DNA from: Deltaproteobacteria bacterium | GTDB taxonomy: Bacteria; Desulfobacterota; Desulfarculia; Desulfarculales; Desulfarculaceae | Reading direction: 5' to 3' | Assembly (NCBI GenBank): GCA_021811275.1 | Contig: JAJZPI010000018.1 | Span: forward strand, 1 to 36,134 | Length of the DNA stretch: 36,134 bases | Shown: piece after piece, positions 1 through 36,134 of the stretch | Layout of the letters: each line of letters opens with the position of its first letter | How positions within the stretch are numbered: position 1 is the stretch's first letter | Position numbers and translations under genes: made by a program | The notes under the pieces: generated by a model | What the model was told of the DNA's origin: nothing | The model's database searches: none | The model's input: the letters and a program-made list of their open reading frames with translations, nothing else

Positions 1-1747
1 CGGGCGGCCGTGGCTGGTGATTGGCCAAAAGGTCCTGGAGTCTTAGCAGGCCGCGCTTGGCGATCTTGTCCGCGTCGGGCACCTGCAGGCCGCCGTAGGC
101 CTTGGACATGAGCTTGGCCGCGAACACCTTCTTCAGGCTGGGCAGATACTCGTCGATGGCGGTGATGACGACGTGATCGAGGGCCACCCCCGTCTTCTCG
201 ATGTTGTCGTAGAGGATGTCCTGGCAGACCGCCATCTTGGCCCCGCTGTCCAGGAGTTGGTGGCGCACCTCGCCGCTGGTGTAGACAGGGCTGACCGGGG
301 TGACCACCGCCCCGGCCCGGAGCGCGCCCAGATAGGCGATTACGTACTGCGGGCAGTTGAGCAAGAGCAGCGCCACCCGGTCGCCCTTGCCCACCCCCAG
401 GGAGGCCAAGGCGGTGGCGAAGCGGTCGACATATTCCTTGAGTTCCTTGTAGGTGATCTTCTTGCCATAGAAGATCAAGGCGTTCTTGCTGCCGAAGCGC
501 TCAACCGCCCTCTCGAACTGCTCGGGCACCGAGACCTGGGGGATTTCCAGGTATTCGGGCACTCCGGGCGGATAGAATCGCAGCCAAGGCTTGGAGAGGT
601 AGGTTTGCCTGGTCTGGACGGCCTCGGGCTCCTCGGCCAGCTCGGAGACCTCGGTTATCACGGGCTCGGCCTGGCGGGCGGCCTCCCCGCTCAGGGCCGC
701 GCCGCAGACCCGGCAGTGCTCGCGCCGGCGCAGGTTGCGCATCTTGCAGCGCGGGCATTCGGTCTCCAGGCGGTCGCGCACCCAGGGCACCAGGCCCTCG
801 GGCATGAACAGGAGGGTAAGCAGGACCAGACCCGCGAAGACGAACATGCGCATCTCGGGCAGCCCCGGGAAGCTTTCCTGCACTCCGCGCAGGACCTCCA
901 TCAGCGGGTTGAGCAGAAAGACGCCGGCCACCGGACCGTAGATGGAGACCATGCCGCCGAAGACCGACCAGATGATGACCTGGAAAGATAGCGACACCTC
1001 CAGGGTGGAGGGTCCGGCCAGGCGCATGAAGTGGGCGTAGAGACCGCCGGCGATGCCGGCGAAGAAGCCGCTCAGACAGAAGGCCAGCAGCTTGTAGCGG
1101 GTGGTGTTGATTCCCGCCGCCCGGGCGGCCAGCTCGTCCTCGCGCACCGCGTGCAGGATGATGCCGGTGTTGGAGTCGGTGATCTTCCACATCACCGCGC
1201 AGGAGACCAGCATCAGGCAGGTGATGAGATAGTAGTCGCCCACCCTGGATCCGGTCAGGCGCGTCAGCCCTGAGAGCCCCAGTTCGCCGCCGGTCAAGCC
1301 CGGGAAGGCGAAGACCAGACCCATGAGGATGATGGGGAAGGCCAGGGTGGTCAGCGCCAGATAGGAGCCCTTCAAGCGCAGGCAGGGAATCCCCACCACC
1401 AGGCCGGTGAGCACGCCGCCCACCGCCCCCAGGGGGATGGACAGGTATGGCGGCAGGCCCAGTTTCAGGTTCAGCAGGGCGGTGACATAGGCCGAGGCCC
1501 CGAAGAACAAGGCGTGGCCGAAGTTCATCTGCCCGGTGAAGCCCGAGAGCAGGTCCCAGCTGGCGGCCAGTATGGCGAAGATGGCGGTGAGGATCATCAC
1601 CCGTAGGATGTAGTAGTCCTGGGTGATGCCCGGCAGCGCCAGGAGCAGGGCCACGAAGGCCAGGACCGCCACCCGGCTGGGCAGCACCAGGACCTCGGTG
1701 CGCAGGATTTTGAAGCCTCTTCGAATGTAGGCGCCCACCAGACCCAT
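1..1747 (-). CDS. livM: LivM-type ABC permease fused to a FadD-like acyl-CoA ligase (partial)
   Basis: The frame is open without a stop from ATG 1747 to the left edge, so the C-terminus lies outside. Residues 1 to about 325 are a branched-chain amino acid type permease, with the family motif GFTGQMNFGHALFFGASAY and many hydrophobic helices. It ends in LLFMPEGLVPWV, where normal LivM proteins stop. A zinc ribbon follows (CPRC, ten residues, CRVC, about 329-346), then an acidic linker. From about residue 395 (KPWLRFYPPGVPEYLEIP) it is the N-terminal part of an AMP-forming fatty-acid CoA ligase (ITYKELKEYVDRFATALASL, RVALLLLNCPQYVIAYLGAL). I read every codon from about 780 down to 1, and the linker region shows no stop and no good internal start. 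A purine-rich AAAGGGA lies upstream of the start. Liv permeases move solutes across the inner membrane with LivH and LivFG. The fusion suggests the imported acid is activated to its CoA ester at the membrane (inference). The AMP-binding P-loop motifs would be beyond the edge. Confidence 0.85.
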   Translation of the reverse strand, partial: MGLVGAYIRRGFKILRTEVLVLPSRVAVLAFVALLLALPGITQDYYILRVMILTAIFAILAASWDLLSGFTGQMNFGHALFFGASAYVTALLNLKLGLPPYLSIPLGAVGGVLTGLVVGIPCLRLKGSYLALTTLAFPIILMGLVFAFPGLTGGELGLSGLTRLTGSRVGDYYLITCLMLVSCAVMWKITDSNTGIILHAVREDELAARAAGINTTRYKLLAFCLSGFFAGIAGGLYAHFMRLAGPSTLEVSLSFQVIIWSVFGGMVSIYGPVAGVFLLNPLMEVLRGVQESFPGLPEMRMFVFAGLVLLTLLFMPEGLVPWVRDRLETECPRCKMRNLRRREHCRVCGAALSGEAARQAEPVITEVSELAEEPEAVQTRQTYLSKPWLRFYPPGVPEYLEIPQVSVPEQFERAVERFGSKNALIFYGKKITYKELKEYVDRFATALASLGVGKGDRVALLLLNCPQYVIAYLGALRAGAVVTPVSPVYTSGEVRHQLLDSGAKMAVCQDILYDNIEKTGVALDHVVITAIDEYLPSLKKVFAAKLMSKAYGGLQVPDADKIAKRGLLRLQDLLANHQPRPP

Positions 1748-1852: not shown

Positions 1853-2722
1853 TCAGCGCTCCTCTTCGAAGGAGACCCCGAACAAGCCCTCGGGCCGGAT
1901 CAGGAGCACCAGGATCATGATCGAAAGCGCCACCGAGTCCTTGAGGAAGGAGCCCATGGGCAGCAGGAAGACCACCAGGGACTCGGCGAAGCCCAGCAGG
2001 TAGGCCCCGATGAAGCTGCCTTCGATGCTGCCAAGGCCCCCCAGCACCACGATGGCCAGCATCATGATCAGGGGGTGCATCCACATGGTGGGCTCCACCG
2101 TGATCAGGGGCACCACGATGGCCCCGGTCATGGCGGCCAGGCCCACGGACACCGCCACGGTGGCCATGGCCACGCGATTGACGTCCATGCCCATGAGGTT
2201 GGCGACCTCGCGGTCCTGGGCCGTGGAGCGCAGGGCCAGGCCCAACCGGGTGCCGGTCAGGAACTGGCGCACGCCCAGCAGCATCACCAGGGCCAGGCCC
2301 AGGGCCAGCAGGTGCTGGTAGGTGACCTTCACCCCCATCACCTCCAGGTAGCCGTCTATCAGGGGCGGCACGCCCAGGTAGTGGCCGCCGAAGGACATCA
2401 GGAAGACCTCCTGGAGCATCATGGCCACCGCGATGGTGGCGATGAGCACTGCGGCCTCGTGCTCCTGGATGGGCTGGATGAATAGCCGGTAGACCACCAG
2501 GCCCAGGAGCACCGTGAGCGCCACGGCTCCGGCCATAGCCAGGATGAGCGGCAGCCCCAGGATCTTGCTGCCCATGTAGATCAGATAGGCCGCAGTCATG
2601 AACAGGGCGGTGTGCGCTATGTTGATGATGCGCGCCACCCCCAGCACCAGCGAAAAGCCGATGGCCAGCAGGGCGTAGACGCTGCCCTTGATAAGACCGT
2701 CGATTACGATGTCCAGCAGCAT
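1853..2722 (-). CDS. livH: LivH-type ABC transporter permease
   Basis: A 289-residue integral membrane protein of the branched-chain amino acid/urea/aromatic acid permease family, of typical length. It starts MLLDIVIDGLIKGSVYALLA and has the hallmark stretch GVARIINIAHTALFM (family pattern G.....NFAHG) and a C-terminal IRPEGLFG. GAGGA about seven bases before the ATG serves as ribosome binding site. It lies between the binding protein upstream (130 bp gap containing hairpins) and the LivM fusion 105 bp downstream on the same strand, so it should form the transmembrane channel with LivM. The LivG and LivF ATPases are not in the window and presumably lie beyond the left edge. The substrate cannot be read from the sequence. 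The beta-oxidation context argues for a carboxylic acid rather than leucine (inference). Confidence 0.93.
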   Translation of the reverse strand: MLLDIVIDGLIKGSVYALLAIGFSLVLGVARIINIAHTALFMTAAYLIYMGSKILGLPLILAMAGAVALTVLLGLVVYRLFIQPIQEHEAAVLIATIAVAMMLQEVFLMSFGGHYLGVPPLIDGYLEVMGVKVTYQHLLALGLALVMLLGVRQFLTGTRLGLALRSTAQDREVANLMGMDVNRVAMATVAVSVGLAAMTGAIVVPLITVEPTMWMHPLIMMLAIVVLGGLGSIEGSFIGAYLLGFAESLVVFLLPMGSFLKDSVALSIMILVLLIRPEGLFGVSFEEER

Positions 2723-2852: not shown

Positions 2853-4130
2853 CTACTTCTTCCAGTGCTCCGCCACCCAGGGGGGCAGCTTGTAGGGCTT
2901 GGAGCCCTCGTAGGTCACGCCCTCCCAGTTGAAGGGCCAGACGCACTCGATCTTGCCGTCCTGCCACTGAGTGCCCACGGCGGTGACGAACTTGGGCCCC
3001 CAGGTGATGTCGTGAGACTTGTCGAAAACCTCGCGCCCGGCAGCGCCCAGGGCGTCGGTCTTCTCCATCTCCGCCACCACCTTGTCGGACTTGATGGTGC
3101 CGGCCCGTTCGATCGCGTCCTTCAACAGGTAGAGGGCGTCATAGGTCCCCGCGGTGTAGTTGGGGGCCTCCTTGAACTCCTTTATGTACTTGTCGTAGAA
3201 GGGGATGGTTTTGTCGGTGATCTTAACCCGGCCGTAGGTGTTGACGGTCAGGGTGTACTCGCCCTTGCCCCCGGTGGCGGCCCAGAAGCCCGACTTCTGG
3301 GCCTCGACATTGATGCCCACCGCCGCCGCCGGGACCTTGAGTTCGCCCCACTGCTTGGCGAAGGTAAGCCCCACCGAGGAGGAGAAGGTGGTGAATACGA
3401 TGTGGGCGCCGGCGCGCTGAATGGCGGCCAGCTCGGCGGTGCAGTCCTTGGCCACCGGCGAGGGCCGCCAGGTGCCCACCACCTCCATGCCCATCTGCTC
3501 GGGCAGCATCTTCTCGGCTGCGGCCACGATGGGGTCGGCCCAGGCGGCCTTCTCGGCGATGATGGCGACCTTGAGCTTCTCCAGGCCCAGGGTCTTCTTC
3601 ATGATGGCCCCCACGGTGCCCAGCAGGATGAAGTCGACCTTGCCCAGGTAGGTGGAGTTGATGGGAGTGAGCCGGAACCAGTACTTGTAGCGGTCATAGT
3701 CCTTGGTGACCCGGGTGCAAAGCTCGGGGTGGGCCGCGCCGCAGCCGATGAAGATCTTCTTGGCGTCCATGGCGATGTCCTGCATGACCAGGACCGCCTC
3801 GGTGCGGAAACCGCCCACCATGAAGTCGACCTTGTGGCGGCTGACGGCCATCTCGGTGGCGTTGGTGGCGTCGGGGATGCTCAGGAACTCGTTGGTATCC
3901 ACCTTAACCAGCTCGAGGGGACGCTTTTCCTTGCCCACGGTGATGCCGCCGGCGGAGTTGATCTCCTCGGCGGCCATGGTGGCGCCGTTCCAGTGGCCCT
4001 CGCCCTGGGTGAAGGCCATGGGACCCAGCACCCCGATCTTGATGGGATCGGCCGCCTGGGCGGATTGGCCTAGACCCAGGCCCAGCCATAGCCCCAAAAG
4101 AACCACTCCTGCCAAACCTGACTTTTTCAT
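2853..4130 (-). CDS. Periplasmic ligand-binding protein of a Liv-type ABC transporter
   Basis: A 425-residue receptor-family ligand-binding protein (Peripla_BP_6 type). ATG 4130 is chosen because AAGGAGGGG stands just before it and it opens a clear signal peptide: MKKSGLAGVVLL, a hydrophobic core, then cleavage probably after AQA before ADPIKIG. The mature N-terminus KIGVLGPMAFTQGEG is the usual first strand and first ligand loop. EEINSAGGITV is the conserved second element of this family. The open frame extends upstream to 4193, but that part lacks signal-peptide character. It is the first gene of the operon with livH and the LivM-ligase fusion and should deliver the substrate to them. The specificity is unknown. 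Related proteins in anaerobes bind amino acids, aromatic acids or short acids. Confidence 0.92.
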   Translation of the reverse strand: MKKSGLAGVVLLGLWLGLGLGQSAQAADPIKIGVLGPMAFTQGEGHWNGATMAAEEINSAGGITVGKEKRPLELVKVDTNEFLSIPDATNATEMAVSRHKVDFMVGGFRTEAVLVMQDIAMDAKKIFIGCGAAHPELCTRVTKDYDRYKYWFRLTPINSTYLGKVDFILLGTVGAIMKKTLGLEKLKVAIIAEKAAWADPIVAAAEKMLPEQMGMEVVGTWRPSPVAKDCTAELAAIQRAGAHIVFTTFSSSVGLTFAKQWGELKVPAAAVGINVEAQKSGFWAATGGKGEYTLTVNTYGRVKITDKTIPFYDKYIKEFKEAPNYTAGTYDALYLLKDAIERAGTIKSDKVVAEMEKTDALGAAGREVFDKSHDITWGPKFVTAVGTQWQDGKIECVWPFNWEGVTYEGSKPYKLPPWVAEHWKK

Positions 4131-4942: not shown

Positions 4943-5668
4943 ATGAAGATAGGCGAACTGGCCAAAAGGACCGAGGTCCCCAAGCAGACGATCCATTATT
5001 ATATCAGGAGCGGCCTTTTGCCCAAGCCCCGCAAGCTGGGCAGCAATTCCGCCGAGTACGACGAGAGCTACGTTGATCGCATCCGCCTGATCAAGGAGTT
5101 GCAGAACGACTTCTTCTTTCCCCTGCCCACCATCAAAAAAATCCTCTGGGAGCACCGTAGCGCCAGCAAGCAAGCCATGCTCAAACTGCGGAGCGAATTC
5201 TTCCGGCCCGTCGAGCACTATCTGGGCACGGGAGTGGAGGGCGACGATGCCTTCATCGCCGCCACCGGCCTGGCCCGTCGCTGGATACCACGGCTCAAGG
5301 AATGGGGCATGTTGAGCCAGGAGAGCAGGAGCGGAGTGAACGTCTACTCCCAGGATGACGTCGCCATCGCCAAGGTCATGGTCAGCATGGCCAAGATGGG
5401 CATCAACCGCCGGCTGAACTTCCAGCCCGAGGTGACAATGCCCATGCTGTCCACCCTTTTCCGGGATATCGCCAAGACCCTGATCGAGGACTTCCATCGT
5501 GCCACGGTGAACATGAAGCAGCCCGAACGCGACGACCTGGCCACCCGCGGCCACGAGATCATGGGCGTGCTCTTCTACCACCTCTACCGCAAGTTCGCCC
5601 ACGAATACCTCCAGCGCCAGCGCCAGGAAAAGGCCCAGGACGAGGGCAAGGACCCCGCCGCCGGCTGA
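4943..5668 (+). CDS. MerR-family transcriptional regulator
   Basis: A 241-residue protein starting MKIGELAKRTEVPKQTIHYY, the classic MerR winged helix-turn-helix, followed by IRSGLLPKPRK and the dimer-helix region to about residue 75. A second stretch at about 110-160 (ARRWIPRLKEWGML, then VNVYSQDDVAIAKVMVSMAK) resembles another MerR-like wing (ETIRYYEKIGLL ... YRVYSEEDVARL), so the effector half may hold a divergent second HTH. The C-terminal 80 residues are helical with an Arg/Gln/Lys-rich end. No metal-binding cysteine pattern is seen, so a metal sensor is unlikely. It is divergent from the transport operon and upstream of the beta-oxidation operon, which makes it the likely regulator of both, possibly sensing an acyl-CoA (inference). 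Confidence 0.85.
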   Translation: MKIGELAKRTEVPKQTIHYYIRSGLLPKPRKLGSNSAEYDESYVDRIRLIKELQNDFFFPLPTIKKILWEHRSASKQAMLKLRSEFFRPVEHYLGTGVEGDDAFIAATGLARRWIPRLKEWGMLSQESRSGVNVYSQDDVAIAKVMVSMAKMGINRRLNFQPEVTMPMLSTLFRDIAKTLIEDFHRATVNMKQPERDDLATRGHEIMGVLFYHLYRKFAHEYLQRQRQEKAQDEGKDPAAG

Positions 5669-5737
5669 TCCTCGCCAGGGTCCGCCGCCCCGCCGCGTCC
5701 GACTCATCCCGGCTCGCAACCAGCCTGGCCCGCCCAG

Positions 5738-5760
5738 GGCCGGCCAAAGGCCGGCCTTTT
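5738..5760 (+). terminator. Intrinsic terminator after the MerR-type gene
   Basis: GGCCGGCC, loop AAA, GGCCGGCC, then TTTT. It lies 70 bases after the regulator stop codon and before the next promoter, so the beta-oxidation genes are transcribed separately. Confidence 0.85.
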
Positions 5761-5794
5761 CGCACATTAGGTCTTTACTTCCGGGGTTCGTTTG

Positions 5795-5848
5795 TATAAT
5801 CTTTGGTTTGAGATGAAAGCGCTGAGTAACGCAATACGTTATTTAGCG
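5795..5848 (+). promoter_or_regulatory. Promoter and operator of the beta-oxidation operon
   Basis: A consensus -10 box TATAAT is at 5795-5800, with only a poor -35 (TTTACT at 5774). About 20 bases downstream is the inverted repeat 5820-5848. Its arms CGCTGAGTAACG and CGTTATTTAGCG match at 10 of 12 positions around the spacer CAATA, with a perfect TAACG/CGTTA core. The site covers the expected transcription start and early transcribed region, a position typical of repression. The MerR-type protein encoded just upstream is the candidate ligand (inference). Confidence 0.55.
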
Positions 5849-5948
5849 ATTGTTTTCAGCTCCCTAGGGCCTTTTGTCCCCTAATCGGGCCCGGCCCCGC
5901 GCCAGGCGCGCCGCCGGACGGCTCCCTCCACTCCAGAGCGAGAGAGAC

Positions 5949-8081
5949 ATGAAAACCGACTACAAGTGCGTGAAGGTCGAACTGAGCCAGGGCGTGGCCC
6001 TGCTGGGCATGGACAACCCGCCGGTCAACCAGATGTCCGAGCACTTCGTCCAGGAGCTGCGCGAGTCCACCCTGGAGGCCCTGGCCGACCCGGAGGTCAA
6101 GGCCGTCATCCTCACTGGCACCGGCAAGAACTTCGTGGCCGGAGCGGACGTGACCCAGCTCCTGACGGTCAAGGACAGGGAAGCCTTTGTGGCCAAGCTC
6201 ATGGGCGTGCACGAGTGGCTAAACGCCCTGGAGCAGGGTCCCAAGCCGGTCATCGCGGCCATAAACGGCAACTGCCTGGGCGGCGGCCTGGAAATCGCCA
6301 TGGCCTGCCATTACCGCATCGCGGTACAGGGGGTGAACCTGGGCCTGCCCGAAGTCAAGCTGGGCCTGTTGCCCGGCAGCGCCGGCACCCAGCGCCTGCC
6401 TCGACTCATTGGCCTGCCGGGCGCCCTGGATCTCATGACCACGGGCAAGTTCGTCAAGGCCGACAAGGCCTGCTCCCTGGGTTTCGTTGATCTGGTGGCG
6501 CCGGCCGAGGGTCTGCTGGAGGCCGCCCGCGAGGCCGCGGCCAAGTTCCTGAACCGCCAGCTGAACTGGAAGACCCGCCTGTCCAGCCGCCGCTTCGACC
6601 GCTTGCCCAGCCACAGCGAGAAGCAGAGCCTCATCGCCTTCGTCAAAAGCCAGCTGGCCGCCAAGGCCAAGGGCTACCCCGCTCCCTTGAAGATCGTCGA
6701 GGCGGTGGAAAAGGGCCTCACCATGGACTTCCAGGCCGACATCGCTCGCGAGGCCCAACTCTTCGGCGACCTCCTGGTCTCCGACGAGGCCAAGAACCTC
6801 ATCGCCACCTTCCTGAACGAACGCGCAGCCGGCCGCCTGCCTCGCATCAAGGGCCTGACCCCGGCCAAACCCAAAAAGGTGGCCATGCTGGGCGGCGGGG
6901 TCATGGGCTCCGGCATCGTGCACCTCTTGCTGGCCGGCGGCTTCGAAGCCGTGCTCTGGGAGATCAACGAGGCGGCGGCGGCAAAGGCTCTGGCCGCCAT
7001 CAAGAAGACCTTCGCCTACCAGATCAAGACCAAGAAGACCACGCCCGAGAAGCTCGAGGCCCTGCTGGCGGCCAAGCTGACCACCACCACCAGGCTGGAG
7101 GACCTGGCCGGCGTTGACCTGGTGATCGAGGCGGTGCTGGAGGACATGAAGGTCAAACAGGAGGTCTGGAAAAAGCTGGAGGCCATCTGCCGGCCCGAGG
7201 TGATCTTCGGCACCAACACCTCGGCCCTGCCCATCACCGAGATGGCCACGGTGCTCAAAGACCCCGGCCGCATGATCGGCCTGCACTTCTTCAACCCCGC
7301 CGAGCGCATGCCCCTCTTGGAGATCATCTGCGCCGAAAAGACCAGCGACCAGACCCTGGCCACCAGCGTGGACTTCGGCCGGGCCATCAAGAAGGTCCCG
7401 GTGGTGGTGGGCGACGGGCCGGGCTTCTACGTCTCCCGCCAGCTGGGCGGCCTCATGGGCGGCTCGGTCTTCCTGCTGGCCGACGGCGTCAGCGGCCCGG
7501 AGATCGAGAAGGCCATGATGGACTTCGGCCTGCCCATGGGCCCGGCCACCCTGGCCGACCTGACCGGCATCGACATCAACTACCACGTGGGCAACACCTT
7601 CGCCCGCCGCCTGGGCGGCCGCTACCAGGTGCACCCCCTGACCGAGGCCATCTACCAGCTGGGCGACTACGGCCGCAAGACCGGCCGGGGCTACTTCGAC
7701 TACGGCGGGCCGAAACCCGTGCCCAACCCCCGGGTGGCCGAGGTGGTGGCCGGCTATCTGAAAGACCACGGCGTGGCCCCCCGCCAGGCCGTTCCGGGCG
7801 AGGTGGTGGAGCTGATGCTGGCCAACGCCATCAACGAGGCGGCGCTGATGATGGAGCAGGGCATCTGCGACCGGCCGGCGGACATGGACCTGGCCATGGT
7901 CATGGGCACCGGCTTCCCCCCCTACCGCGGCGGTATCCTGCGCCACGCCGACAAGTGGGGCCTCAAAAACGTCCACGCCAAGCTCGTGGAGCTGGAGAAC
8001 AAGTACGGCCCGCGCTTCGCCCCGGCCGGTCTCATCAAGGACATGGCGGAACAAGGGCGGACCTTCTACCAGGACCGCTAA
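5949..8081 (+). CDS. fadJ: Fused enoyl-CoA hydratase / 3-hydroxyacyl-CoA dehydrogenase
   Basis: A 710-residue bifunctional beta-oxidation enzyme of the FadB/FadJ type, of normal length. ATG 5949 is preferred over the open extension to 5874 because the homologous domain begins at once (VKVELSQGVALLGMDNPPVN). Residues 1-190 are the hydratase: oxyanion-hole region NFVAGADVTQL and the two catalytic glutamates at about 115 (GGGLEIAMAC) and 135 (LPEVKLGLLPG). From about 308 it is the NAD-dependent dehydrogenase: KKVAMLGGGVMGSG (dinucleotide fold, glycines near 315) and GLHFFNPAERMPLLEII with catalytic His 446. The C-terminal domain has GRKTGRGYFDY. It converts enoyl-CoA to 3-ketoacyl-CoA and makes NADH. 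The thiolase follows after 68 bp. FadB versus FadJ cannot be decided from sequence alone. Confidence 0.95.
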   Translation: MKTDYKCVKVELSQGVALLGMDNPPVNQMSEHFVQELRESTLEALADPEVKAVILTGTGKNFVAGADVTQLLTVKDREAFVAKLMGVHEWLNALEQGPKPVIAAINGNCLGGGLEIAMACHYRIAVQGVNLGLPEVKLGLLPGSAGTQRLPRLIGLPGALDLMTTGKFVKADKACSLGFVDLVAPAEGLLEAAREAAAKFLNRQLNWKTRLSSRRFDRLPSHSEKQSLIAFVKSQLAAKAKGYPAPLKIVEAVEKGLTMDFQADIAREAQLFGDLLVSDEAKNLIATFLNERAAGRLPRIKGLTPAKPKKVAMLGGGVMGSGIVHLLLAGGFEAVLWEINEAAAAKALAAIKKTFAYQIKTKKTTPEKLEALLAAKLTTTTRLEDLAGVDLVIEAVLEDMKVKQEVWKKLEAICRPEVIFGTNTSALPITEMATVLKDPGRMIGLHFFNPAERMPLLEIICAEKTSDQTLATSVDFGRAIKKVPVVVGDGPGFYVSRQLGGLMGGSVFLLADGVSGPEIEKAMMDFGLPMGPATLADLTGIDINYHVGNTFARRLGGRYQVHPLTEAIYQLGDYGRKTGRGYFDYGGPKPVPNPRVAEVVAGYLKDHGVAPRQAVPGEVVELMLANAINEAALMMEQGICDRPADMDLAMVMGTGFPPYRGGILRHADKWGLKNVHAKLVELENKYGPRFAPAGLIKDMAEQGRTFYQDR

Positions 8082-8149: not shown

Positions 8150-9355
8150 ATGCAAGAAGTGGTCATCGCCGGCTACCTGCGCACGGCCCAATCCCGCTGC
8201 CGCCCCAACGACCCCGGACGCGACTGGTTCCACGCCTTACGCTCCGACGAGCTGCTGGGCCGGCTCCTGCCCGAGCTGATCAAGCGCACCGGCATCGATG
8301 CCAAGGAGATAGAGGACTTCATCGTGGGCTCGGCCACAGGGGTGGGCGAGCAGTGGACCTACGGCGGCCGCACCCCCATCTTCCTGGCCAACCTGCCCGA
8401 GACCATCGCCGCCAAGTTCGTGGACCAGCAGTGCGGTTCGGCCATGGCCGGCATTCACATAGGCTTCATGGAGATCGCCACCGGCAACGCCGAGGTGGTC
8501 ATGGTCGGCGGCATGGAGCACATGACCCGGGTGCCCATAGGCGGCACCACCCAGGACCGCGGCCTGGTGGCCTACAACCTGAATCTGTTCCTGAACCCGG
8601 ACTACCGGCACTGGGACATGATGACCGCCACCAACATGGGGCTCACCGCCGAGAAGCTCTTCAAGCGGACCGGCCTGACCAAGGAGGACATGGACCGCTG
8701 GGCCGTGCGCTCCCACCAGCTGGCGGCCCAGGCCCAGGCCGAGGGCTTCTTCGACGAGGAGATCATGCCCATCGAGGCCCCCCAGGCCAACGGCTCCATG
8801 ATGACCGTGAAGGCCGACCAGGCCGTGCGCGGCGAGACCAGCCTGGAGGACCTGGCCAAGCTCAAGCCCGCCTTCACGAAGGACGGCGTCATCACCGCCG
8901 GGGTCAGCTCGCCCTTGAACGCCGCCGCCACGGGCATGATCCTCATGAGCAAGGCCAAGGCCAAGGCGCTGGGCATCAAGCCCCTCGCCACCCTCCGCTC
9001 CATAGGCTTCGCCGGCCTGGACCCCACCATCATGGGCCACGGCCCGGTGCCGGCCAGCTTGAAGGCCCTGGACAAGCTGGGCCTGAAGCCCGCGGACATC
9101 GACTTCTGGGAGATCAACGAGGCCTTCGCCATCGTGGCCCTGAACTGCATCAAGGAGCTGGGCCTGAACCCCGACGCCGTCAACGTCATGGGCGGCGGCC
9201 TGGCCATCGGCCACCCCCTGGGCGCCACCGGCAACCGCCTGGTGGGCACCCTGGCCCGCATCCTGGCCAAGAAGGGCGCGCGCTGGGGCTGCGCCAACGC
9301 CTGCGTGGGCGGCGGCCAAGGCGTGGCCACCGTCATCGAGCGCGAGGAGTATTAG
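8150..9355 (+). CDS. fadA: Acetyl-CoA acyltransferase (thiolase)
   Basis: A 401-residue thiolase that cleaves 3-ketoacyl-CoA with CoA, completing the beta-oxidation round. AAAGGAG lies seven bases before ATG 8150. The frame is open further upstream inside the preceding gene, but the family N-terminus is MQEVVIAGYLRTAQSR. All catalytic residues are present: Cys95 in QQCGSAMAG, His355 in GGGLAIGHPLGATG, and Cys385 in NACVGGGQG, plus the NEAFA motif before the second half. Spacing and length match tetrameric thiolases of degradative or biosynthetic type. Its place behind the hydratase/dehydrogenase favours the degradative role. The fadA symbol is by role; chain-length preference cannot be read. 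Confidence 0.93.
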   Translation: MQEVVIAGYLRTAQSRCRPNDPGRDWFHALRSDELLGRLLPELIKRTGIDAKEIEDFIVGSATGVGEQWTYGGRTPIFLANLPETIAAKFVDQQCGSAMAGIHIGFMEIATGNAEVVMVGGMEHMTRVPIGGTTQDRGLVAYNLNLFLNPDYRHWDMMTATNMGLTAEKLFKRTGLTKEDMDRWAVRSHQLAAQAQAEGFFDEEIMPIEAPQANGSMMTVKADQAVRGETSLEDLAKLKPAFTKDGVITAGVSSPLNAAATGMILMSKAKAKALGIKPLATLRSIGFAGLDPTIMGHGPVPASLKALDKLGLKPADIDFWEINEAFAIVALNCIKELGLNPDAVNVMGGGLAIGHPLGATGNRLVGTLARILAKKGARWGCANACVGGGQGVATVIEREEY

Positions 9356-14114: not shown

Positions 14115-14959
14115 GCCTGGACCACGGCCATAGCCACCGCCAGCAATCTGGCCAGGACGGACCGCGAACCGCGGGCCTTTGCTATCCCCCGTGGCATTGG
14201 CTGCGTCATGGCGACCCGCGCCAGGTGCTCGAGGCCCATGCCCAGCAACAGAGCAAGGCCTACAGCCGCCTGAAGAACCAATTTATACGCGAACTGTTGG
14301 GCGACCTCTCCGGCAAAAGCCTTTTGGACTACGGCTGCGGGCCGGGCCAATTCCTGGCCTACGCCGCCGGGGCCGGGGCGCGGCGTATCGTGGGCGTGGA
14401 CAGCCAGGCCACGGCCTTGGCCGCCGCCGCCCTGCTGCTGCGCGGCCTGCGGCCGGAGGTGGAACGCCTGCTGGTGTGCTCCCGCGACCTGTCCTTCTCC
14501 GCCGTCGCCAGCTTCGACGTGATCCTGCTCAAGGACGTCATCGAGCACCTGCCCGACGATCTGACTCTGTTGCAAGGGGCCGCGCGCTGCCTGCACCCCC
14601 AGGGCCGACTGGTGATAAGCACCCAGAACGCCTGGTCCCTGAATTACCTGATCGAGGGCTTCGCGCAGCGGCGTCTCCGGGGCCGCCGCCACTGGATGGG
14701 ATGGGATCCCACCCACCTGCGTTTCTACACCCCGCCCGGACTGGCCTCGCTTCTGGCGCGGGCCGGACTGGAGGCCGTAGACTGGCGTTCCTCCTATCTC
14801 GTGCCCCACAAACTGCCCCGAGGGAAAGGCCGTTATCTGCGCCTGGAATTCCTGACCGGGCTGGACCGGCTGCTGGGATGGCGCCAGCCCCTGCACCGCC
14901 TGGGATGGTGCCTCATGGTGTCGGCTCGTCCATGCCGGCGCGGCGGGCCGCGTTCCTGA
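14111..14959 (+). CDS. SAM-dependent methyltransferase (class I)
   Basis: A 282-residue protein whose ATG overlaps the stop of the preceding glycosyltransferase by 4 bp. The Rossmann fold shows motif I LLDYGCGPGQFLAYAAG, an acidic strand end RIVGVDS, motif II FDVILLKDVIEHLPD and motif III GRLVISTQNAW, as in type 11/12 methyltransferases of glycan clusters. About 75 residues precede motif I, including PPWHWLRHGDPRQVLEAH. It probably methylates a sugar or lipid-linked intermediate. Its last 47 bp overlap the convergent radical SAM gene. Confidence 0.87.
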   Translation: MSLDHGHSHRQQSGQDGPRTAGLCYPPWHWLRHGDPRQVLEAHAQQQSKAYSRLKNQFIRELLGDLSGKSLLDYGCGPGQFLAYAAGAGARRIVGVDSQATALAAAALLLRGLRPEVERLLVCSRDLSFSAVASFDVILLKDVIEHLPDDLTLLQGAARCLHPQGRLVISTQNAWSLNYLIEGFAQRRLRGRRHWMGWDPTHLRFYTPPGLASLLARAGLEAVDWRSSYLVPHKLPRGKGRYLRLEFLTGLDRLLGWRQPLHRLGWCLMVSARPCRRGGPRS

Positions 14960-16328
14960 ACTCCACCGCCTTTTCCACCTGCCCGGCCAGCTGACGGAAG
15001 CGTTTTGGCGCGATATGCCGGCAAAAGCAGTTGGCCGGGCTCTGGTGATTGTGCCGCGAGGGGTCGAAGTCCACGCCTATGAGCCCATGCTCCTGGCAGT
15101 AGGCAAATGCCTCGGTACCCGGATAGGGAGTGAAGATGCTGTAGATCACCTTGTCGCAGTCGATGGCCTTGATCACCTCCAAGGTCTGGCGCAGGCTGGT
15201 CTCGTCCTCCTGGGGCAGGCCCACCATGAAGAAGCACTCCAGGCGCAGCCCGCGCCGGGTGACGAGCCGGCAGGCCGCCAAGGCCTGTTCGATCGAAAAC
15301 CCTTTGCGCATGGCCCGCAGCGTGCGGTCGCTGCCGGACTCGATGCCCAGCTGAATGCCCACGCAACCGGCCTCCTGGAGCAGCTCCAGAGCCGGGAGGG
15401 TTATAAGGCTGACGTGCGTCTCGCAGGTGAAGGCCAGGCCCGGACAGCGCCGGGCCAGTCCTTGGCAGAGCTGGCCCAGATAGGCGCCGTCCACGCCAAA
15501 GGTGTCGTCCTCGAAGTGGAGCGTGCCCAGGCCCCGTTTCAGCAGGTCAGCGGCCTCGGCGGCCACCGCCTCCGGCCGGCGGCGGCGCACCCGCCCCCAG
15601 ATGCTGCGGGAGCCGCAATAAAAGCAGCGCCGCGGGCAGCCCCGGCTGGCCAGCAGCCCTTTGAAGGCCGCCGGGGGATAGCGATCCTGATCCCATAGCG
15701 CTCCTTGGGCAATCGGACGCGGCCAGGGCAGCACATCCAGGTCGGGCAGAGGCGGCCGCGCCGCGGTTGCCGTGGGAATCCTGCCCCGGCGCAAGGCCAG
15801 GCCCGGTACCAGTGCAACGTCGCCGCCTTGCTCCAGGGCCCGCAGCAATTCCACCAGGGAAACCTCGCCCTCGCCCAGCACGGCCAGGTCCAGCTCCGGG
15901 TGTTCCAGCACCGCCGGGCCCACGGCGGTGACATGGGGGCCGCCCGCCACCACCAGCACCTCGGGGTCCATTGCCTTGGCCAACCGAGCCAAGGCCAGCC
16001 CGGCGGCCAGGGTAGGCGACTTGAGCGAAATCCCCACCACGCCGGGCCGCAGGGATGCCAGCGCCTGCCCGGCCTCCCGCCAGGGAGCGGCCTCGGTGTA
16101 CAACAGGTTCTCCCGGTATCTCTGGAAACCCTCTCCGGTGAGATAGGTCACCCGGAAGGGCGCGGCCCGGGGAACGAAGTCGCCGTTGAAAACCCTCACC
16201 TCCCAGGCCGTGGCCTGGCTCGCCGCCGCGGCCAGATAGCCCAGGCCCAGGGGAAAGCGGGTCAGGCCGTAGCCGCTTTCCATGAGGCGGTAGAAGGGAG
16301 GCTCCATGAGCAGCAACCGCTTCCTCAA
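14913..16328 (-). CDS. Radical SAM protein with B12-binding-like N-terminal domain
   Basis: The likely start is TTG 16328, which overlaps the stop of the upstream glycosyltransferase (TTGA) and gives 471 residues beginning MRKRLLLMEPPFYRLMESGY. ATG 16307 is an alternative. Residues 1 to about 160 look like a cobalamin-binding fold (AGGPHVTAVGPAVLEHPELD), although the cobalamin histidine motif DxHxxG is not seen. At about 229-236 CPRRCFYC gives the CxxxCxxC cluster motif of radical SAM enzymes. IQLGIESGSDRTLRAMRKGF is the typical mid-barrel segment of this B12-rSAM group (BchE/HpnR-like). The substrate is unknown. The operon context (glycosyltransferase upstream) suggests modification of a glycan or lipid. 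Confidence 0.85.
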   Translation of the reverse strand: MRKRLLLMEPPFYRLMESGYGLTRFPLGLGYLAAAASQATAWEVRVFNGDFVPRAAPFRVTYLTGEGFQRYRENLLYTEAAPWREAGQALASLRPGVVGISLKSPTLAAGLALARLAKAMDPEVLVVAGGPHVTAVGPAVLEHPELDLAVLGEGEVSLVELLRALEQGGDVALVPGLALRRGRIPTATAARPPLPDLDVLPWPRPIAQGALWDQDRYPPAAFKGLLASRGCPRRCFYCGSRSIWGRVRRRRPEAVAAEAADLLKRGLGTLHFEDDTFGVDGAYLGQLCQGLARRCPGLAFTCETHVSLITLPALELLQEAGCVGIQLGIESGSDRTLRAMRKGFSIEQALAACRLVTRRGLRLECFFMVGLPQEDETSLRQTLEVIKAIDCDKVIYSIFTPYPGTEAFAYCQEHGLIGVDFDPSRHNHQSPANCFCRHIAPKRFRQLAGQVEKAVEFRNAARRAGMDEPTP

Positions 16329-17371
16329 GGCCGCTGCCTTTCTCCCAGCAAGCCCTCGAACAACCCGATATAGGTCTGAACGGTATCGCCCCAGCCATGA
16401 TGCCGGGCCATGTAGGTCCTGGCCGAGCGAACCCGTGCCGGGCCGGGCGGGTTGACCAGGAGTTCGCCCAAGGCTTCGGCCAGGCCGGCCGTGTCGTTGT
16501 AGGGGGTTATCCGTCCCATGCCCAAGCGCTGGGTCAGGGGACCCTGCAGGATAGGCGCCTCGCAAGCCACCGGCAGGCCGGCCCGCAGGTAGTGCGTCAC
16601 CTTGGAGCTGTCATTATCGAAGGGCTCGGGACCCGCGGCCAGGGCCAGACCGGCGGCGGCCCAGCGCAGGTAGGTCCAGACTTCCCTTGGCGGCTTTTCG
16701 CCGTGGTCCTTCACCAGCGCCGACACCCGCCGGCGGCGGCCATAGAGGCCGCTTTTGTTGCGCCCCAACAAATGAACCTGGGCCTGGCCCTCCAAGGCCC
16801 GGGCCACCCGGTTGAGCATCGTCACTTGGCGCGAACTGGCCAAGGAGCCCGCGTAGATCACCGCCGGCCGTCGACGGTCGAAAGGGTTGGGGCCCAGGGC
16901 GGGCAGTCTGGCGGGGCAGCCGGTGGGAGCGATCGCGCAGGGCAGCCCCCGGCCATACAGAAGGCTCCATCGCTCCCGGTTCTCGCGGTTGTTGAAGGTC
17001 ACTGCCTGGGCGCGGCGGCTGATGGCCAGCTGCGCCCGCAGTAGATTATCGCGCTGACCTTGGTCGCGGGCCGGGTGGCGCTCGTCGACCACCCTGACCA
17101 GGCGCGCGACCAACGGTCCCTCGAACCCTTCGGCCAAAAAGATGGACTGGTGGTAACAGGTCTTTACCAGATCATAGGCGCGGCGGCCCTGGAGAGCCTC
17201 AAGCGGCAGCACCGGCAGACCCTCGAGGTGGCCGGCGCGCACCACCGGAGCGACAATGTCGGCCTCTACCCCCCGCGCGCGAAGGCCGGAGGCCAGGGCC
17301 AGCAAGCGGACCAAGTCTATGCCCGGCGACCGGACGCGGGGGTCATGGGGGAATAGCAACGCGACTTTCAT
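16325..17371 (-). CDS. Glycosyltransferase (GT-B fold, GT1/GT4-like)
   Basis: A 348-residue protein starting MKVALLFPHDPRVRSPG at ATG 17371, which overlaps the preceding stop (ATGA). The longer frame to 17422 is inside the upstream gene. The N-terminal half has the acceptor-side elements DLVRLLALASGLRARGVEAD and AVTFNNRENRERWSLL. The C-terminal half has AVIYAGSLASSRQ, VHLLGRN and FDNDSSKVTHYLRAGLPVAC, typical of the donor-binding domain of GT-B enzymes. The classic E-x7-E is not clear. It is the middle gene of the minus operon and is followed by the radical SAM gene with a 4-bp overlap. Donor and acceptor are unknown. Confidence 0.82.
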   Translation of the reverse strand: MKVALLFPHDPRVRSPGIDLVRLLALASGLRARGVEADIVAPVVRAGHLEGLPVLPLEALQGRRAYDLVKTCYHQSIFLAEGFEGPLVARLVRVVDERHPARDQGQRDNLLRAQLAISRRAQAVTFNNRENRERWSLLYGRGLPCAIAPTGCPARLPALGPNPFDRRRPAVIYAGSLASSRQVTMLNRVARALEGQAQVHLLGRNKSGLYGRRRRVSALVKDHGEKPPREVWTYLRWAAAGLALAAGPEPFDNDSSKVTHYLRAGLPVACEAPILQGPLTQRLGMGRITPYNDTAGLAEALGELLVNPPGPARVRSARTYMARHHGWGDTVQTYIGLFEGLLGERQRP

Positions 17372-31204: not shown

Positions 31205-34123
31205 TCAGGCCAGTTGGCGCTTAGCCAGTTCGGCGAAAATTCCTCCGCCCGCCATCAGCTGGGAGTAGGTGCCTTCCTCGCGTATGCGTCCCCGCTCCAG
31301 GACCAGGATGCGGTCGGCGTTGACTATGGTGCTGAGGCGATGGGCGATGACCAGACGTGTGGCCTTGAGGCCCTCCAGGCTTCGGCTCACCAGCGCCTGG
31401 GTGCGGTTGTCCAAGGCACTGGTGGCCTCGTCGAAGATGATGATCCGGGGCTTGCGCACCAAAGCGCGGGCTATGAGCAGCCGCTGCCGCTGCCCGCCGG
31501 AGAGGGTGCTGCCCCCCTCGCTGACCACGGTGTGCATGCCCATGGGCATGTTCCTGATGTCCTCGTCCAAGCCAGCCATGGCCGCCGCCTCCCAGGCCGC
31601 GTCCTGGCCCAGGGGGGCCGAGCCGACGATGTTGGAGAAGATGTCGCCGGTCATCACGGTGGCGTTCTGCAGGACCACCCCGATCTGGCGGCGCACCTCG
31701 GTTACGTCCACCGCGGCCAGATCGAATTGATCGTAGTAGACGGTGCCCTGCTCGGGCTGGTCGAAACCCAACAGCAGGCGCAGCAGGGTGGATTTTCCCG
31801 ACCCGGAGGGGCCGACCAGGGCCACGAACTCACCCGGCCGCAGGGTCAGCGACACGTCGTCCAGGATGGGGGGGCCCTCGGGGGCGTAGCGAAAAGACAC
31901 GTGGTTGAGCTCCACCCGGCCCTGCAACTGGCCGGGACGGCCCTTTGTCTCGTCCACCTCGGGGATGGTCTCCACGATGGGCTTCAGGCGCTCGAAGTAA
32001 GGCACCACGTTGAGAGTGGAAACCAGGGCCGCGCTGACCTGGATTGCCGAGGTCAGCATGATGGTGAAGGCGCTGTTGAAGGCCAAAAAGTCGCCTGAGG
32101 CGATGGCCCCCCGGTCCTCTAGGAAAACTATCCAGGCGAACAGCACCCCGCTGGAGAGCACCGGGACGGCGGCGTTGAACGCCGCCAGCCGATTGGCTAT
32201 GCCGCCGCTCTTCATGGCGAGGGTCTTCTGCCGGGTGAACTGCTCGGCCCAGATGGCGAAGGCCCGGTTCTCGGCCCCGGCCAGTCGAAGTTTGCCCAGT
32301 CCAACGATGAGTTGCTGCACCAGGGAGGATATTTTCCCCTGCAGGGTGATGGACTCGCGCTGATAGGTCAGCTGGCGCAAGCTGGCCAACGTGGTGTAGG
32401 CCATGGCCAGGAGCATGAGCGCCACGCCCAGGAGAGAAAGCTTCCAGCTGTAGTAGAACATCAGGATCAGGTTCACTACCGAGAAGAGGCTTCCCATGAC
32501 GGTCGTGGCCACAGTCCCGGAAATGAGGCGACGGATGGCGTTGATCCCCAGGGCGCGCAGGGCCAGGTCGCCGGTTGAGTAGCCGCGGAAGAAAGAGGCG
32601 GGCAGGGCCATGAGCCGGTCCCACAAGGCCGACTGTACGGCGTAGTCCATCTTGCCCTCGATGCGCAGGGTGGCCAAGTTCCGCACGAAGGTGAAGGCCG
32701 CCGACGCCAGGTAGCCCACTAGAAGAATGACGGTCAGTTGCAGCATGTACCCCCTGGCGGCATAGGGGATGATGTCGGAGTAGATGATGCCCGTGGCCAG
32801 CGGCGTCAGCAGACCCAGCAGGCCCACCAAGGCCGCCATCCAAAAAAGCAGGCGCATGTCCCCGGCCAGCCCCTGCGCCCCGAAACGCCATACATCACGG
32901 CCGCTCAGGACCCGCTGCGGAAAGGGTCGATAGAAGGTGACGGCGAAAGGGTCCAGGGATTGGGCCGTCTCGGCGGTGATCGGCCGCGCCGCGCCGTCAC
33001 CCGGCTCCACCATCTGATATGAGCCGGAGGAAACCGGCAGGAGAGCGACTGGCCTCAGCTGCGGGCCCACGAAGCCCAACATGGGCCCGGCGTCCTGGGT
33101 CCACCAGCGCCTCTTGAGCGCCACGCGGCGCATCTTTATCCCGGATATGCGGGCCAGCTCCTCCAAGGGGTCCGCCAGTACGGCCCCGGCCTTTACCGGC
33201 GGGGGCTGTTTGAAGTCCAGTCCCAGGCGCTCCCCCACCATCCGGCAAGCGGCCAGGAGGCTGTCCTCCATGTCCATGTCCTTGGCGGCGAATGACCGCT
33301 TGCCCCCCAGCACCGACGAGAGTTGGGAATATGCCTTATCCAGAAGGGCCTCGTCCCGCCGGGACTGGTCCTCCAGGCGGGCCTTGCGGCCTTGGTTGTC
33401 CTTGAAGAACTGACCCCTCAAGCGGGCCGAGGCGGTTTCCAGCAGCCCGGACAATCCCTGCCACGAGGGGTCGCGGGCAAGCCATTGCCGGGTGCCCAGG
33501 CAGCGCAAGCGGCTGTCGTCACCAGCCCGCACCCAAGCACCGGAGGCCATGGGCAGGCTGGCGCCGGGAAGAAGCGGTTCAAGCCCCTCATCGGCCAGGG
33601 GTCTGAGCACACCCTCCAGGGTTTCGACCCAAATCACGCCGTCGGCGCAGCGCGCCCCGCCGCCCTGGGCCAGGGAGGTCTCGCCCTCGGAAGGCAAGGG
33701 GTCCATTCCCGCCGGCGGTTCGGTGTCCGCGACCAGGGCCGCCCACAACGCGCCGATGACGCTGTCCAGCAGCCACAGGACCGGATCCTCTCCATCCGGT
33801 CGCCGGGCCAGCTCCTGAAGGTCCCTCCAGCTTAGGCTCAACAGCCGCGTCGCCGCATCGGGCACCAAAACAATTCCGGCCGAGCCTTGCTCCAGTGCGT
33901 GGGGCAGGCCCGCCAGCGCTTGGCCCTGCTCGGCCCGGCCCAGGAAACGCGTGTTGCCGGCGGGCTTGCCGTTGCTCAAGGAGGCGACGAGGAGATCCCC
34001 GCCGCCCGACGCCAGCAACAGGATGCATCGGGGGTCGTCAAGGAGCAAGGGACGGCCGGCGGGCGCCGTCAGCTCCGAGCCCCGGCTTTCCCAGAAGGCT
34101 GCTTGTTCCGGTGTCAGTGGCAA
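31205..34123 (-). CDS. NHLM/NHLP bacteriocin-type ABC exporter, ATP-binding/permease subunit
   Basis: About 972 residues, assuming TTG 34123, 26 bases after the upstream stop. The open frame continues to 34297 inside the upstream gene. Residues 1 to about 390 form a long cytoplasmic region lacking a C39 cysteine protease but ending LEELARISGIKMRRVALK and DPFAVTFYRPFPQRVLSGRD, as in the second ABC protein of NHLM systems. The membrane domain (six helices, about 400-670) follows. The ATPase has Walker A LVGPSGSGKSTLLRLLLGF (near 770), signature LSGGQRQRLLIARALVRKP (near 872) and IIIFDEATSALD. It should pair with the peptidase-ABC protein upstream to export a ribosomally made peptide. Confidence 0.88.
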   Translation of the reverse strand: MPLTPEQAAFWESRGSELTAPAGRPLLLDDPRCILLLASGGGDLLVASLSNGKPAGNTRFLGRAEQGQALAGLPHALEQGSAGIVLVPDAATRLLSLSWRDLQELARRPDGEDPVLWLLDSVIGALWAALVADTEPPAGMDPLPSEGETSLAQGGGARCADGVIWVETLEGVLRPLADEGLEPLLPGASLPMASGAWVRAGDDSRLRCLGTRQWLARDPSWQGLSGLLETASARLRGQFFKDNQGRKARLEDQSRRDEALLDKAYSQLSSVLGGKRSFAAKDMDMEDSLLAACRMVGERLGLDFKQPPPVKAGAVLADPLEELARISGIKMRRVALKRRWWTQDAGPMLGFVGPQLRPVALLPVSSGSYQMVEPGDGAARPITAETAQSLDPFAVTFYRPFPQRVLSGRDVWRFGAQGLAGDMRLLFWMAALVGLLGLLTPLATGIIYSDIIPYAARGYMLQLTVILLVGYLASAAFTFVRNLATLRIEGKMDYAVQSALWDRLMALPASFFRGYSTGDLALRALGINAIRRLISGTVATTVMGSLFSVVNLILMFYYSWKLSLLGVALMLLAMAYTTLASLRQLTYQRESITLQGKISSLVQQLIVGLGKLRLAGAENRAFAIWAEQFTRQKTLAMKSGGIANRLAAFNAAVPVLSSGVLFAWIVFLEDRGAIASGDFLAFNSAFTIMLTSAIQVSAALVSTLNVVPYFERLKPIVETIPEVDETKGRPGQLQGRVELNHVSFRYAPEGPPILDDVSLTLRPGEFVALVGPSGSGKSTLLRLLLGFDQPEQGTVYYDQFDLAAVDVTEVRRQIGVVLQNATVMTGDIFSNIVGSAPLGQDAAWEAAAMAGLDEDIRNMPMGMHTVVSEGGSTLSGGQRQRLLIARALVRKPRIIIFDEATSALDNRTQALVSRSLEGLKATRLVIAHRLSTIVNADRILVLERGRIREEGTYSQLMAGGGIFAELAKRQLA

Positions 34124-34149
34124 GCGGTCGTTCGCTCCCAGGCCTCGTC

Positions 34150-36134
34150 TTAGTCGGCCTTGATCAGTTGGGAATAGGGTCCATCCAACTGGATCATCTC
34201 TCGATGGGTTCCCCGCTGTTTGACCCGCCCTTCCTGCAACATGATGATCTCGTTGCTGTCGCGGATGGTGCTCAGGCGGTGGGCCACGATCAGGCAAGTG
34301 CAGCCCCGCCGGTGGATGTTGTCCATGACCTGCTTTTCCGTGGAAGGGTCCAGGGCGCTGGTGGCCTCGTCCAGGATCAGTACGGATGGAGAGCCGGCCA
34401 GGGCGCGGGCTATCTCCAACCGCTGCCTTTGCCCGCCGCTGAAGTTTGCCCCCCCCTCGGCCACCATGGAGTCATAGCCACCGGAGCGGGCCACGATCAT
34501 GTCGTGGATACATGCGTCGCGAGCGGCCTTGACCAAATCCTCCTCGCTGATGCTGGTGTTCCAGAGGGTCAGATTGTCGCGGATGCTGCCTTCGAACATG
34601 AATATCTCCTGGTCCACCACCGCCATGGCGCTGGCGAGCAGACGCCGGGGCGTATTGGACAAGGGCCGGCCATCCAGCAGTATCTCTCCCCCCCAGGGCT
34701 TGAAGAGCCCGGTCGCCAGCTTGGCCACGGTGGACTTGCCAGAGCCTGAGTTTCCCACCAGGGCCACCCGATCACCCGGCTCCAGGGCCAGGTCGAAATT
34801 CTCTATCAACGGTGGGGCCAAGGGGCTGTAGCCGAAGGTGATGTTCCTGAGCTCCAGGCGGCCTTCGACCGGGCGATCTTGCATCCCGTCCTCGCCCTCG
34901 GGCAGCTGATAGCGCTCGTCGATGGGATTATTGAAGACGTCGTCCAGGCGGTTCATGTCGCCCTGGGCATCCTGCAGCTTGGGCCCCAGGTTGACCAGCT
35001 GATTGACCGGGGCGAGAAAAGTGGCCATCAGGGCTTGGAAGGCCACCAGGTCGCCCATGGACAGCTCGCCCTGCATCACCCGCAGCGCGCCCAAGGACAG
35101 GATGCCCAGGTTGTTCAGAGAGGTGAGAAGGGGCGGAATCACCATGAGGAAATAGGTGGGCACGCCAAGGTCCTGTTCGGCGTTGACCACCTTGGCCTGA
35201 TAGCCCGCCCAGCGGGCGAACAAGTCCGGCTCCGCCCCGGTGGCCTTGATGGTTTCTATCTGCTGTAGACCGTTAATGGCCGTGCCCAGCAACTTGCCCT
35301 CCTCCTGGAGAAAGCGCTGATTGAGGTCCACGCGCCGCTTGGAAACATAACCCAGGGCCACCAGGTTGAAACAGGCGATGAAAACTCCGGTGAAGGTCAG
35401 CCACACGTCATACTGAAACATCAGGATGGTGTAGAGCAGGATCGTCACCACGCTTATGGTGTTTGAGGCCAGGTCGCCCGAGAGCAGTTGGGCCACCCGG
35501 TCGTTGATCATCACGCGGGAGGCGATCTCGCCGCCGAAGCGCTGGGAAAAGAACTCCAGAGGCAGCCGCATGATATGGCGCAGGAAGCTGGCCGAGGTGA
35601 CCACGGCCAGCTTGGACTGAAAGCGCAGCAGGTTGGTCTGCTGGAGCAGCGTCAGCAGGTAGATGATTCCCAGGGCGGCGGCCATCGCCGCCAGCAGGGG
35701 GTTGGACCAGGAGACGTCGTTATGGATAAGGGTGTCATCCACGAACATCTTGGAGAAGATGGGCACCACGAGCCCGGGCACCATCAGGGAAAGCCCTACT
35801 AGCAGTGAGTATGTCACCGGCACCCGAAAGCCTCGCAAGCGTTCCGCCAGTGAACGGGCCAGGGTGCGGCGCTCTCCCCCCTTCTTGAACCGCGGGCCGG
35901 GCCGGAAGGCCATCACCACGCCGGTGAAGGAGTGGTCCAGCTCCTCCTTGGTGACCACCCTGGGCCCCAGGGCCGGATCGTTCAGGAAGACCTTCTCGCC
36001 CTTGATGCCTTCCAGCACCACGAAGTGGTTGAAGTTCCAGAACAGGATCTGGGGGAGTGGCAGGGTGTGCAGACCCTCTGGTTCCAGGCGATAGCCTTGG
36101 GCCTCCAATCCGTACTTGCGGGCGGCGCGCACCA
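34150..36134 (-). CDS. NHLM/NHLP bacteriocin-type ABC exporter with C39 peptidase domain (N-terminally cut by the window)
   Basis: The frame is open from the right edge to the TAA at 34150-34152 (660 codons visible). It begins inside a C39 peptidase: ILFWNFNHFVVLEGIKGE holds the catalytic His and KVFLNDPALGPRVV the catalytic Asp; the Cys lies outside. A membrane domain of about six helices follows (VPVTYSLLVGLSLMVPGLVV onward). The ATPase has LVGNSGSGKSTVAKLATGLF, FSGGQRQRLEIARALAGSP and VLILDEATSALDPS. C39-ABC proteins cut the leader of a precursor after a GG-type site and export the core. Together with the next gene this is the paired exporter of nitrile-hydratase-leader (NHLP) or Nif11-type RiPP systems. 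Precursor and membrane-fusion genes would be beyond the right edge. Confidence 0.9.
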   Translation of the reverse strand, partial: VRAARKYGLEAQGYRLEPEGLHTLPLPQILFWNFNHFVVLEGIKGEKVFLNDPALGPRVVTKEELDHSFTGVVMAFRPGPRFKKGGERRTLARSLAERLRGFRVPVTYSLLVGLSLMVPGLVVPIFSKMFVDDTLIHNDVSWSNPLLAAMAAALGIIYLLTLLQQTNLLRFQSKLAVVTSASFLRHIMRLPLEFFSQRFGGEIASRVMINDRVAQLLSGDLASNTISVVTILLYTILMFQYDVWLTFTGVFIACFNLVALGYVSKRRVDLNQRFLQEEGKLLGTAINGLQQIETIKATGAEPDLFARWAGYQAKVVNAEQDLGVPTYFLMVIPPLLTSLNNLGILSLGALRVMQGELSMGDLVAFQALMATFLAPVNQLVNLGPKLQDAQGDMNRLDDVFNNPIDERYQLPEGEDGMQDRPVEGRLELRNITFGYSPLAPPLIENFDLALEPGDRVALVGNSGSGKSTVAKLATGLFKPWGGEILLDGRPLSNTPRRLLASAMAVVDQEIFMFEGSIRDNLTLWNTSISEEDLVKAARDACIHDMIVARSGGYDSMVAEGGANFSGGQRQRLEIARALAGSPSVLILDEATSALDPSTEKQVMDNIHRRGCTCLIVAHRLSTIRDSNEIIMLQEGRVKQRGTHREMIQLDGPYSQLIKAD

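Follow-up and report, generated by a model that had tools for sequence, protein, structure and literature searches.

Fusion of a LivM-type permease to a FadD-like acyl-CoA ligase within a conserved Desulfobacterota importer operon

Does a single reading frame at the edge of a bacterial contig join the permease of an ABC importer to a CoA ligase in one protein, and if so, what would such a protein do? The window, the whole 36,134-nt stretch analysed here, is one contig (C68) of a 3.95-Mb genome that is 98% complete in 245 contigs. At its left edge, a minus-strand ORF (1747..2) begins with ATG at position 1747 and runs for 582 codons without a stop until the contig ends. Pfam recognised a complete BPD_transp_2 domain at residues 47–312 (8.4e-49) and, at residues 411–531, the N-terminal third of an AMP-binding domain (8e-32). 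Between them lie both CX2C knuckles of a putative zinc ribbon (CX2C-X10-CX2C; C331, C334, C345 and C348), for which the only Pfam match was a sub-threshold one to FYVE, and an acidic segment roughly 33 residues long (Table 1). An earlier note had described one frame passing from LivM through a four-cysteine ribbon into a FadD-like ligase, a description borne out by the open frame, read directly, and by the Pfam domains at both ends. Hydropathy predicted eight hydrophobic segments in the LivM part, both flanks of which are positively charged, so the LivM ends, the ribbon and the ligase are all expected to be cytoplasmic, on the side of ATP and CoA.

Table 1. Coordinates of the fused gene, its neighbours and two comparison loci
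Feature	Location	Strand	Basis
LivM-type permease domain, residues 1-326	window 770..1747	-	Pfam BPD_transp_2; hydropathy, charge bias
Cys4 ribbon CPRC-X10-CRVC (C331, C334, C345, C348)	window 704..757	-	sequence
Acidic linker, residues 349-383	window 599..703	-	junction comparison with split relatives; codon-level analysis
FadD-like acyl-CoA ligase, N-terminal part, residues 384-582	window 2..598	-	Pfam AMP-binding
LivH-type permease, unfused partner of LivM domain	window 1853..2722	-	Pfam BPD_transp_2 3e-33
Periplasmic substrate-binding protein of importer	window 2853..4130	-	Pfam Peripla_BP_6 3e-35
Divergent MerR-type regulator adjoining operon	window 4943..5668	+	Pfam MerR_1
Enoyl-CoA hydratase/3-hydroxyacyl-CoA dehydrogenase (beta-oxidation)	window 5949..8081	+	Pfam ECH_1, 3HCDH_N, 3HCDH
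Acyl-CoA thiolase (beta-oxidation)	window 8150..9355	+	Pfam Thiolase_N/C
941-aa fusion, L083 (JACRDC010000065.1)	5137-7962		
LivG, L083	7967		
LivF, L083	8735		
Split operon, Thermus thermophilus pTTJL1801	L141:5978-12331		
Split operon, Thermus thermophilus pHB5018b	L142:3978-10331		

The remainder of the ligase lies on another contig of the same genome, C41, the start of which overlaps the end of C68 by 141 nt, with 140 positions identical and one mismatch; at a strain variant, a k-mer assembler would be expected to leave a shared end this long with a single polymorphism. The joined reading encodes a full protein of 946 aa, with the rest of the ligase at C41:3-1235, where Pfam found both AMP-binding and AMP-binding_C. 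The earlier note had proposed extending the contig leftward in search of the missing ligase motifs; C41 completes the ligase, in which TGGTTGHPK (598), YGMTE (740), LRTGD (820), DRKRDLIKHRG (839) and PKTDVGK (927) occur in order, and the nucleotide loop, A5, A7, A8 and the catalytic A10 lysine motif are all present. On C41, LivG begins 4 nt past the stop codon of the ligase and is itself immediately followed by LivF. The join is supported independently by a Desulfarculus sp. locus (L083), in which LivH, the fusion, LivG and LivF share a single contig, ordered as in the window genome; the chemotaxis gene downstream of the operon is likewise syntenic there. Both AMP-binding and AMP-binding_C were also detected in the full-length fusion of G014. 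An AlphaFold model of the 941-aa fusion (four rows) was set aside as uninformative (pLDDT 33).

A survey of 395 Desulfobacterota genomes placed the fusion in a broader family: ribbon-tailed LivM proteins occur in 40 of them, from 21 genera, and the LivM/ligase pair is adjacent in about 20 genera. Wherever the junction could be read outside the window's genus, LivM stops soon past the ribbon (RCK...CRVCxAxLD-stop) and a separate start opens the ligase, whose N-terminus is mostly of the form M-D/N/E-x-K...YLSKPW. The second CXXC knuckle and the preceding RCK were present in every readable homologue, and the whole ribbon in Thermus. Because split homologues carry the ribbon at the LivM C-terminus, it is an ancestral LivM tail and not a fusion linker; the earlier idea of the ribbon as the joiner was right about its presence, but the ribbon is no fusion-specific spacer, since unfused LivM relatives end with it too. 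Apart from two shorter loci, in which LivF (L133) or both LivG and LivF (L136) were not found, the gene order SBP-LivH-LivM-ligase-LivG-LivF held in 21/21 of the larger loci read. In a tree of LivM plus ligase, the split forms enclosed a single clade of fused ones (SH-aLRT 100), with G015, a member of the same genus that does without the fusion and keeps two genes, as sister, pointing to one fusion event inside the genus. The fusion arose once, late and within one genus, by loss of the LivM stop. The concern that homologues might always be two genes thus applies only outside that genus, where the homologues read are invariably two adjacent genes; within it, the genes are fused in four species and split in G015. 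One genome, G006, has the common operon and a second, divergent copy in the same order (L121, on G006:C87; 49–56% identity for ligase and LivM), indicating that the ribbon-LivM/ligase module has paralogous subfamilies. Distant ligase matches in G002, G172, G138 and G271 had no cognate LivM that we could find nearby, and the G033 ligase adjoins a LIV operon in which LivM lacks the ribbon.

The junction itself could be compared within the window's genus, an uncultured relative of Desulfarculus for which six genomes were available: it is open in four (G000, G013, G014 and G017), closed by TGA in G015, and had no match in the sixth, which is incomplete. In G015, LivM terminates with CTG GAT TGA and, farther on, GGAGGAGCGAAGAAC stands before the ligase ATG, giving the order of LivM stop, Shine–Dalgarno site and ligase start. 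The four fused species have 27–33 codons in place of the stop and ligase start region; the ancestral ligase ATG and GGAGGA Shine–Dalgarno site are absent from all four genes, and no in-frame ATG, GTG or TTG is conserved across the junction codons. Insertions and deletions in the linker span whole codons, and GC content is 0.81–0.96 at third positions versus 0.44–0.57 at second positions; in-frame indels together with third-position GC matching that elsewhere in the gene are the pattern of translated DNA. The linker dN/dS was about 1, compared with 0.02–0.19 for LivM and 0.15–0.43 for the ligase N-terminus, suggesting that the linker, free of purifying selection, may serve as no more than a tether. 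In G013 (L036, about 2220; the record is shared with L082), the ligase frame is broken by the loss of 86 nt relative to G014, a deletion that is either real or an assembly fault and that falls near the position at which the window's own contig ends.

These comparisons bear on three other ways of accounting for the long frame. The earlier note had named a stop or frameshift hidden at about positions 600–800 as a possible flaw, and an error of sequencing or assembly between two separate genes would suit a contig that stops inside the ligase in so fragmented an assembly. Nevertheless, the window genome shares its open junction with three other species, each from a separate assembly, one of which has the whole fusion on a 39-kb contig of a 99% complete genome; we therefore regard a sequencing error as excluded and give an artefact of either kind a negligible chance. 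It is also improbable, to a lesser degree, that the one ORF yields two products through internal initiation or proteolysis that frees the ligase: the variable, acidic linker is probably disordered and, in the window, contains an in-frame GTG, but the four fused genes have no conserved in-frame start preceded by a Shine–Dalgarno site near the ligase, whereas their split sister has GGAGGAGCGAAGAAC-ATG.

A third account accepts the fusion as real but holds it to be near-neutral, a stop codon lost between co-transcribed partners, with no tight channelling and a ligase that simply rides on the membrane. It would explain why the linker varies in length and has a dN/dS of about 1, and it sits well with a single fusion event and with one congener that keeps the genes apart. 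However, the fused form has been kept through divergence into four species, with loss of the ancestral start and ribosome-binding site, and the pair stays adjacent across about 20 genera, so we think this account unlikely. We favour as probable an ABC importer with a CoA ligase tethered at the cytoplasmic face of its permease, in which an entering fatty or aryl acid would be trapped as the CoA ester. The architecture, the single fusion origin, the conserved operon and the intact ligase motifs are shown by the sequences; the cytoplasmic topology, coupling, ribbon docking and substrate class are what we infer.

The genes around the fusion suggest what might be imported. A binding protein, LivH and beta-oxidation genes had been proposed as neighbours, and the window indeed contains Peripla_BP_6, BPD_transp_2, ECH_1/3HCDH and Thiolase matches; an acyl-CoA dehydrogenase gene lies on C41. 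LivH holds the same position in 21/21 loci, the solved relatives of the substrate-binding protein are all remote, and the MerR-type regulator is kept beside the operon in L083, L122, L123, L125 and L135. With beta-oxidation genes alongside, it would be simplest to suppose that the ABC importer takes up a fatty or aryl acid and that CoA trapping follows at once; this substrate class is suggested by the protein family and these neighbours. An HpaB-family gene also lies near the operon (L031:4972-6420, on the minus strand of C41) and next to it in L124. HpaB-family genes in anaerobes can be 4-hydroxybutyryl-CoA dehydratase-like, which offers a lead on the operon's substrate. Elsewhere in the window, positions 31205-36132 encode two NHLP-type peptide export ABC transporter subunits (TIGR03797 and TIGR03796), the second of which leaves the contig end, and a B12-binding radical SAM protein (14913-16565) lies near glycosyltransferase-like genes.

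In the proposed mechanism, one inner-membrane protein of about 946 residues would comprise the LivM half, the Cys4 ribbon tail, a flexible acidic linker and an AMP-forming ligase, and would assemble with LivH, LivG, LivF and the binding protein into an importer that, because LivH is unfused, would carry one ligase per transporter. The binding protein would capture a fatty or aryl-type carboxylate, LivHM–LivGF would import it, and the tethered ligase would trap it as a CoA thioester that feeds the adjoining beta-oxidation enzymes. That LivM and the ligase are one protein in the window's genus and operon neighbours in many other bacteria suggests that uptake and trapping are physically coupled; in these split relatives, the separate ligase, encoded between livM and livG, would perhaps dock on the ribbon. 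When only the LivM end and ribbon were used as query, the cognate ligase was immediately downstream in 28 of the 30 loci recovered, and the remaining two end just past LivM. By comparison, the cognate ligase is not adjacent at any of the 16 ribbonless LivM loci in the window genome, and no other LivM copy among the loci read in that genome has a ribbon; three of its LIV operons have a different AMP-binding gene about 1.6–2.3 kb away. This association is consistent with the ribbon as a docking site, although the ribbon LivMs are one orthologous family and the association is thus not independent evidence of docking. More tentatively, there may be a widespread, so far undescribed class of ABC carboxylic-acid importers in which the ligase is an obligatory subunit, docked on the ribbon in most species and fused in the window's genus, which would make import and activation a single coupled step; we consider this possible but somewhat doubtful.

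The closest known systems share parts of this design. The operon has the full gene set of LIV/HAAT importers (LivKHMGF; BPD_transp_2), with LivM and LivH well above Pfam cut-offs, and the set is complete: LivH and the binding protein in the window, LivG and LivF on C41, and all of these together on a single contig in L083. Unlike those importers, the window LivM has a Cys4 ribbon tail and is joined covalently to an acyl-CoA ligase, and the ligase gene in operons of this type sits between livM and livG. The ligase shares both domains and all core motifs with FadD-type AMP-forming long-chain acyl-CoA ligases, from which it differs in being fused behind a permease. Its best NCBIfam match was the PRK08314 family and its nearest solved structure 3G7S FadD-1; the cut-off of the curated long-chain subfamily was not reached (best score 490, for the G014 fusion, versus 705), and with scores below every NCBIfam subfamily cut-off shown, the match carries no chain-length or substrate assignment. 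In vectorial acylation, as carried out by FadL/FadD in E. coli and FATP/ACSL in eukaryotes, trapping as the CoA ester drives uptake. To our knowledge, those systems involve no ABC importer and no such permease–ligase polypeptide, and the window system, in contrast, would spend ATP on both import and activation. ABC vectorial acylation would fit all the genomic evidence. Peroxisomal ABCD transporters such as Comatose likewise tie an ABC transporter to acyl-CoA chemistry; Comatose has an intrinsic acyl-CoA thioesterase activity (PMC6642094), whereas the bacterial importer considered here is fused to the ligase itself. In the open-access literature searched, we found no precedent for a LivM–ligase fusion, a ribbon-tailed LivM or bacterial ABC vectorial acylation, and the conserved six-gene operon itself seems to be undescribed there.

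The split arrangement extends to Thermus thermophilus, four plasmids of which carry the LivM/ligase pair, with the same six-gene order in both plasmids read. Like the window's operon, TTJL18_RS10910-RS10935 has six genes in the same order (49–62% identity each) and a ribbon on LivM, the C-terminus of which is ECPRCKARNAFTRRRCRVCGVTLRVKEVRA; unlike the window's, its LivM and ligase are separate genes with overlapping stop and start codons (ATGA in GCATGA). A TetR gene stands divergent to the operon; it matches 3VPR almost exactly, and we take it to be PfmR. In PMC7022988, PfmR is reported to regulate phenylacetate and fatty acid metabolism, and the acyl-CoA dehydrogenase, hydrolase and SDR genes beyond the Thermus TetR gene fit the order TTHB022–TTHB020 given there.

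Together, these data illustrate a fusion that is real, clade-specific and set on a broader conserved operon, made of parts that are themselves known. The proposed coupling of uptake to ligation is well motivated by the genomic comparison. Vectorial acylation has usually been argued from genetics. A natural permease–ligase fusion, along with a ligase gene placed between permease and ATPase genes, makes physical coupling within an ABC importer directly testable, and the split form occurs in a cultivable thermophile, T. thermophilus. A common Desulfobacterota operon could thereby be annotated by function as something other than a 'branched-chain amino acid transporter'.
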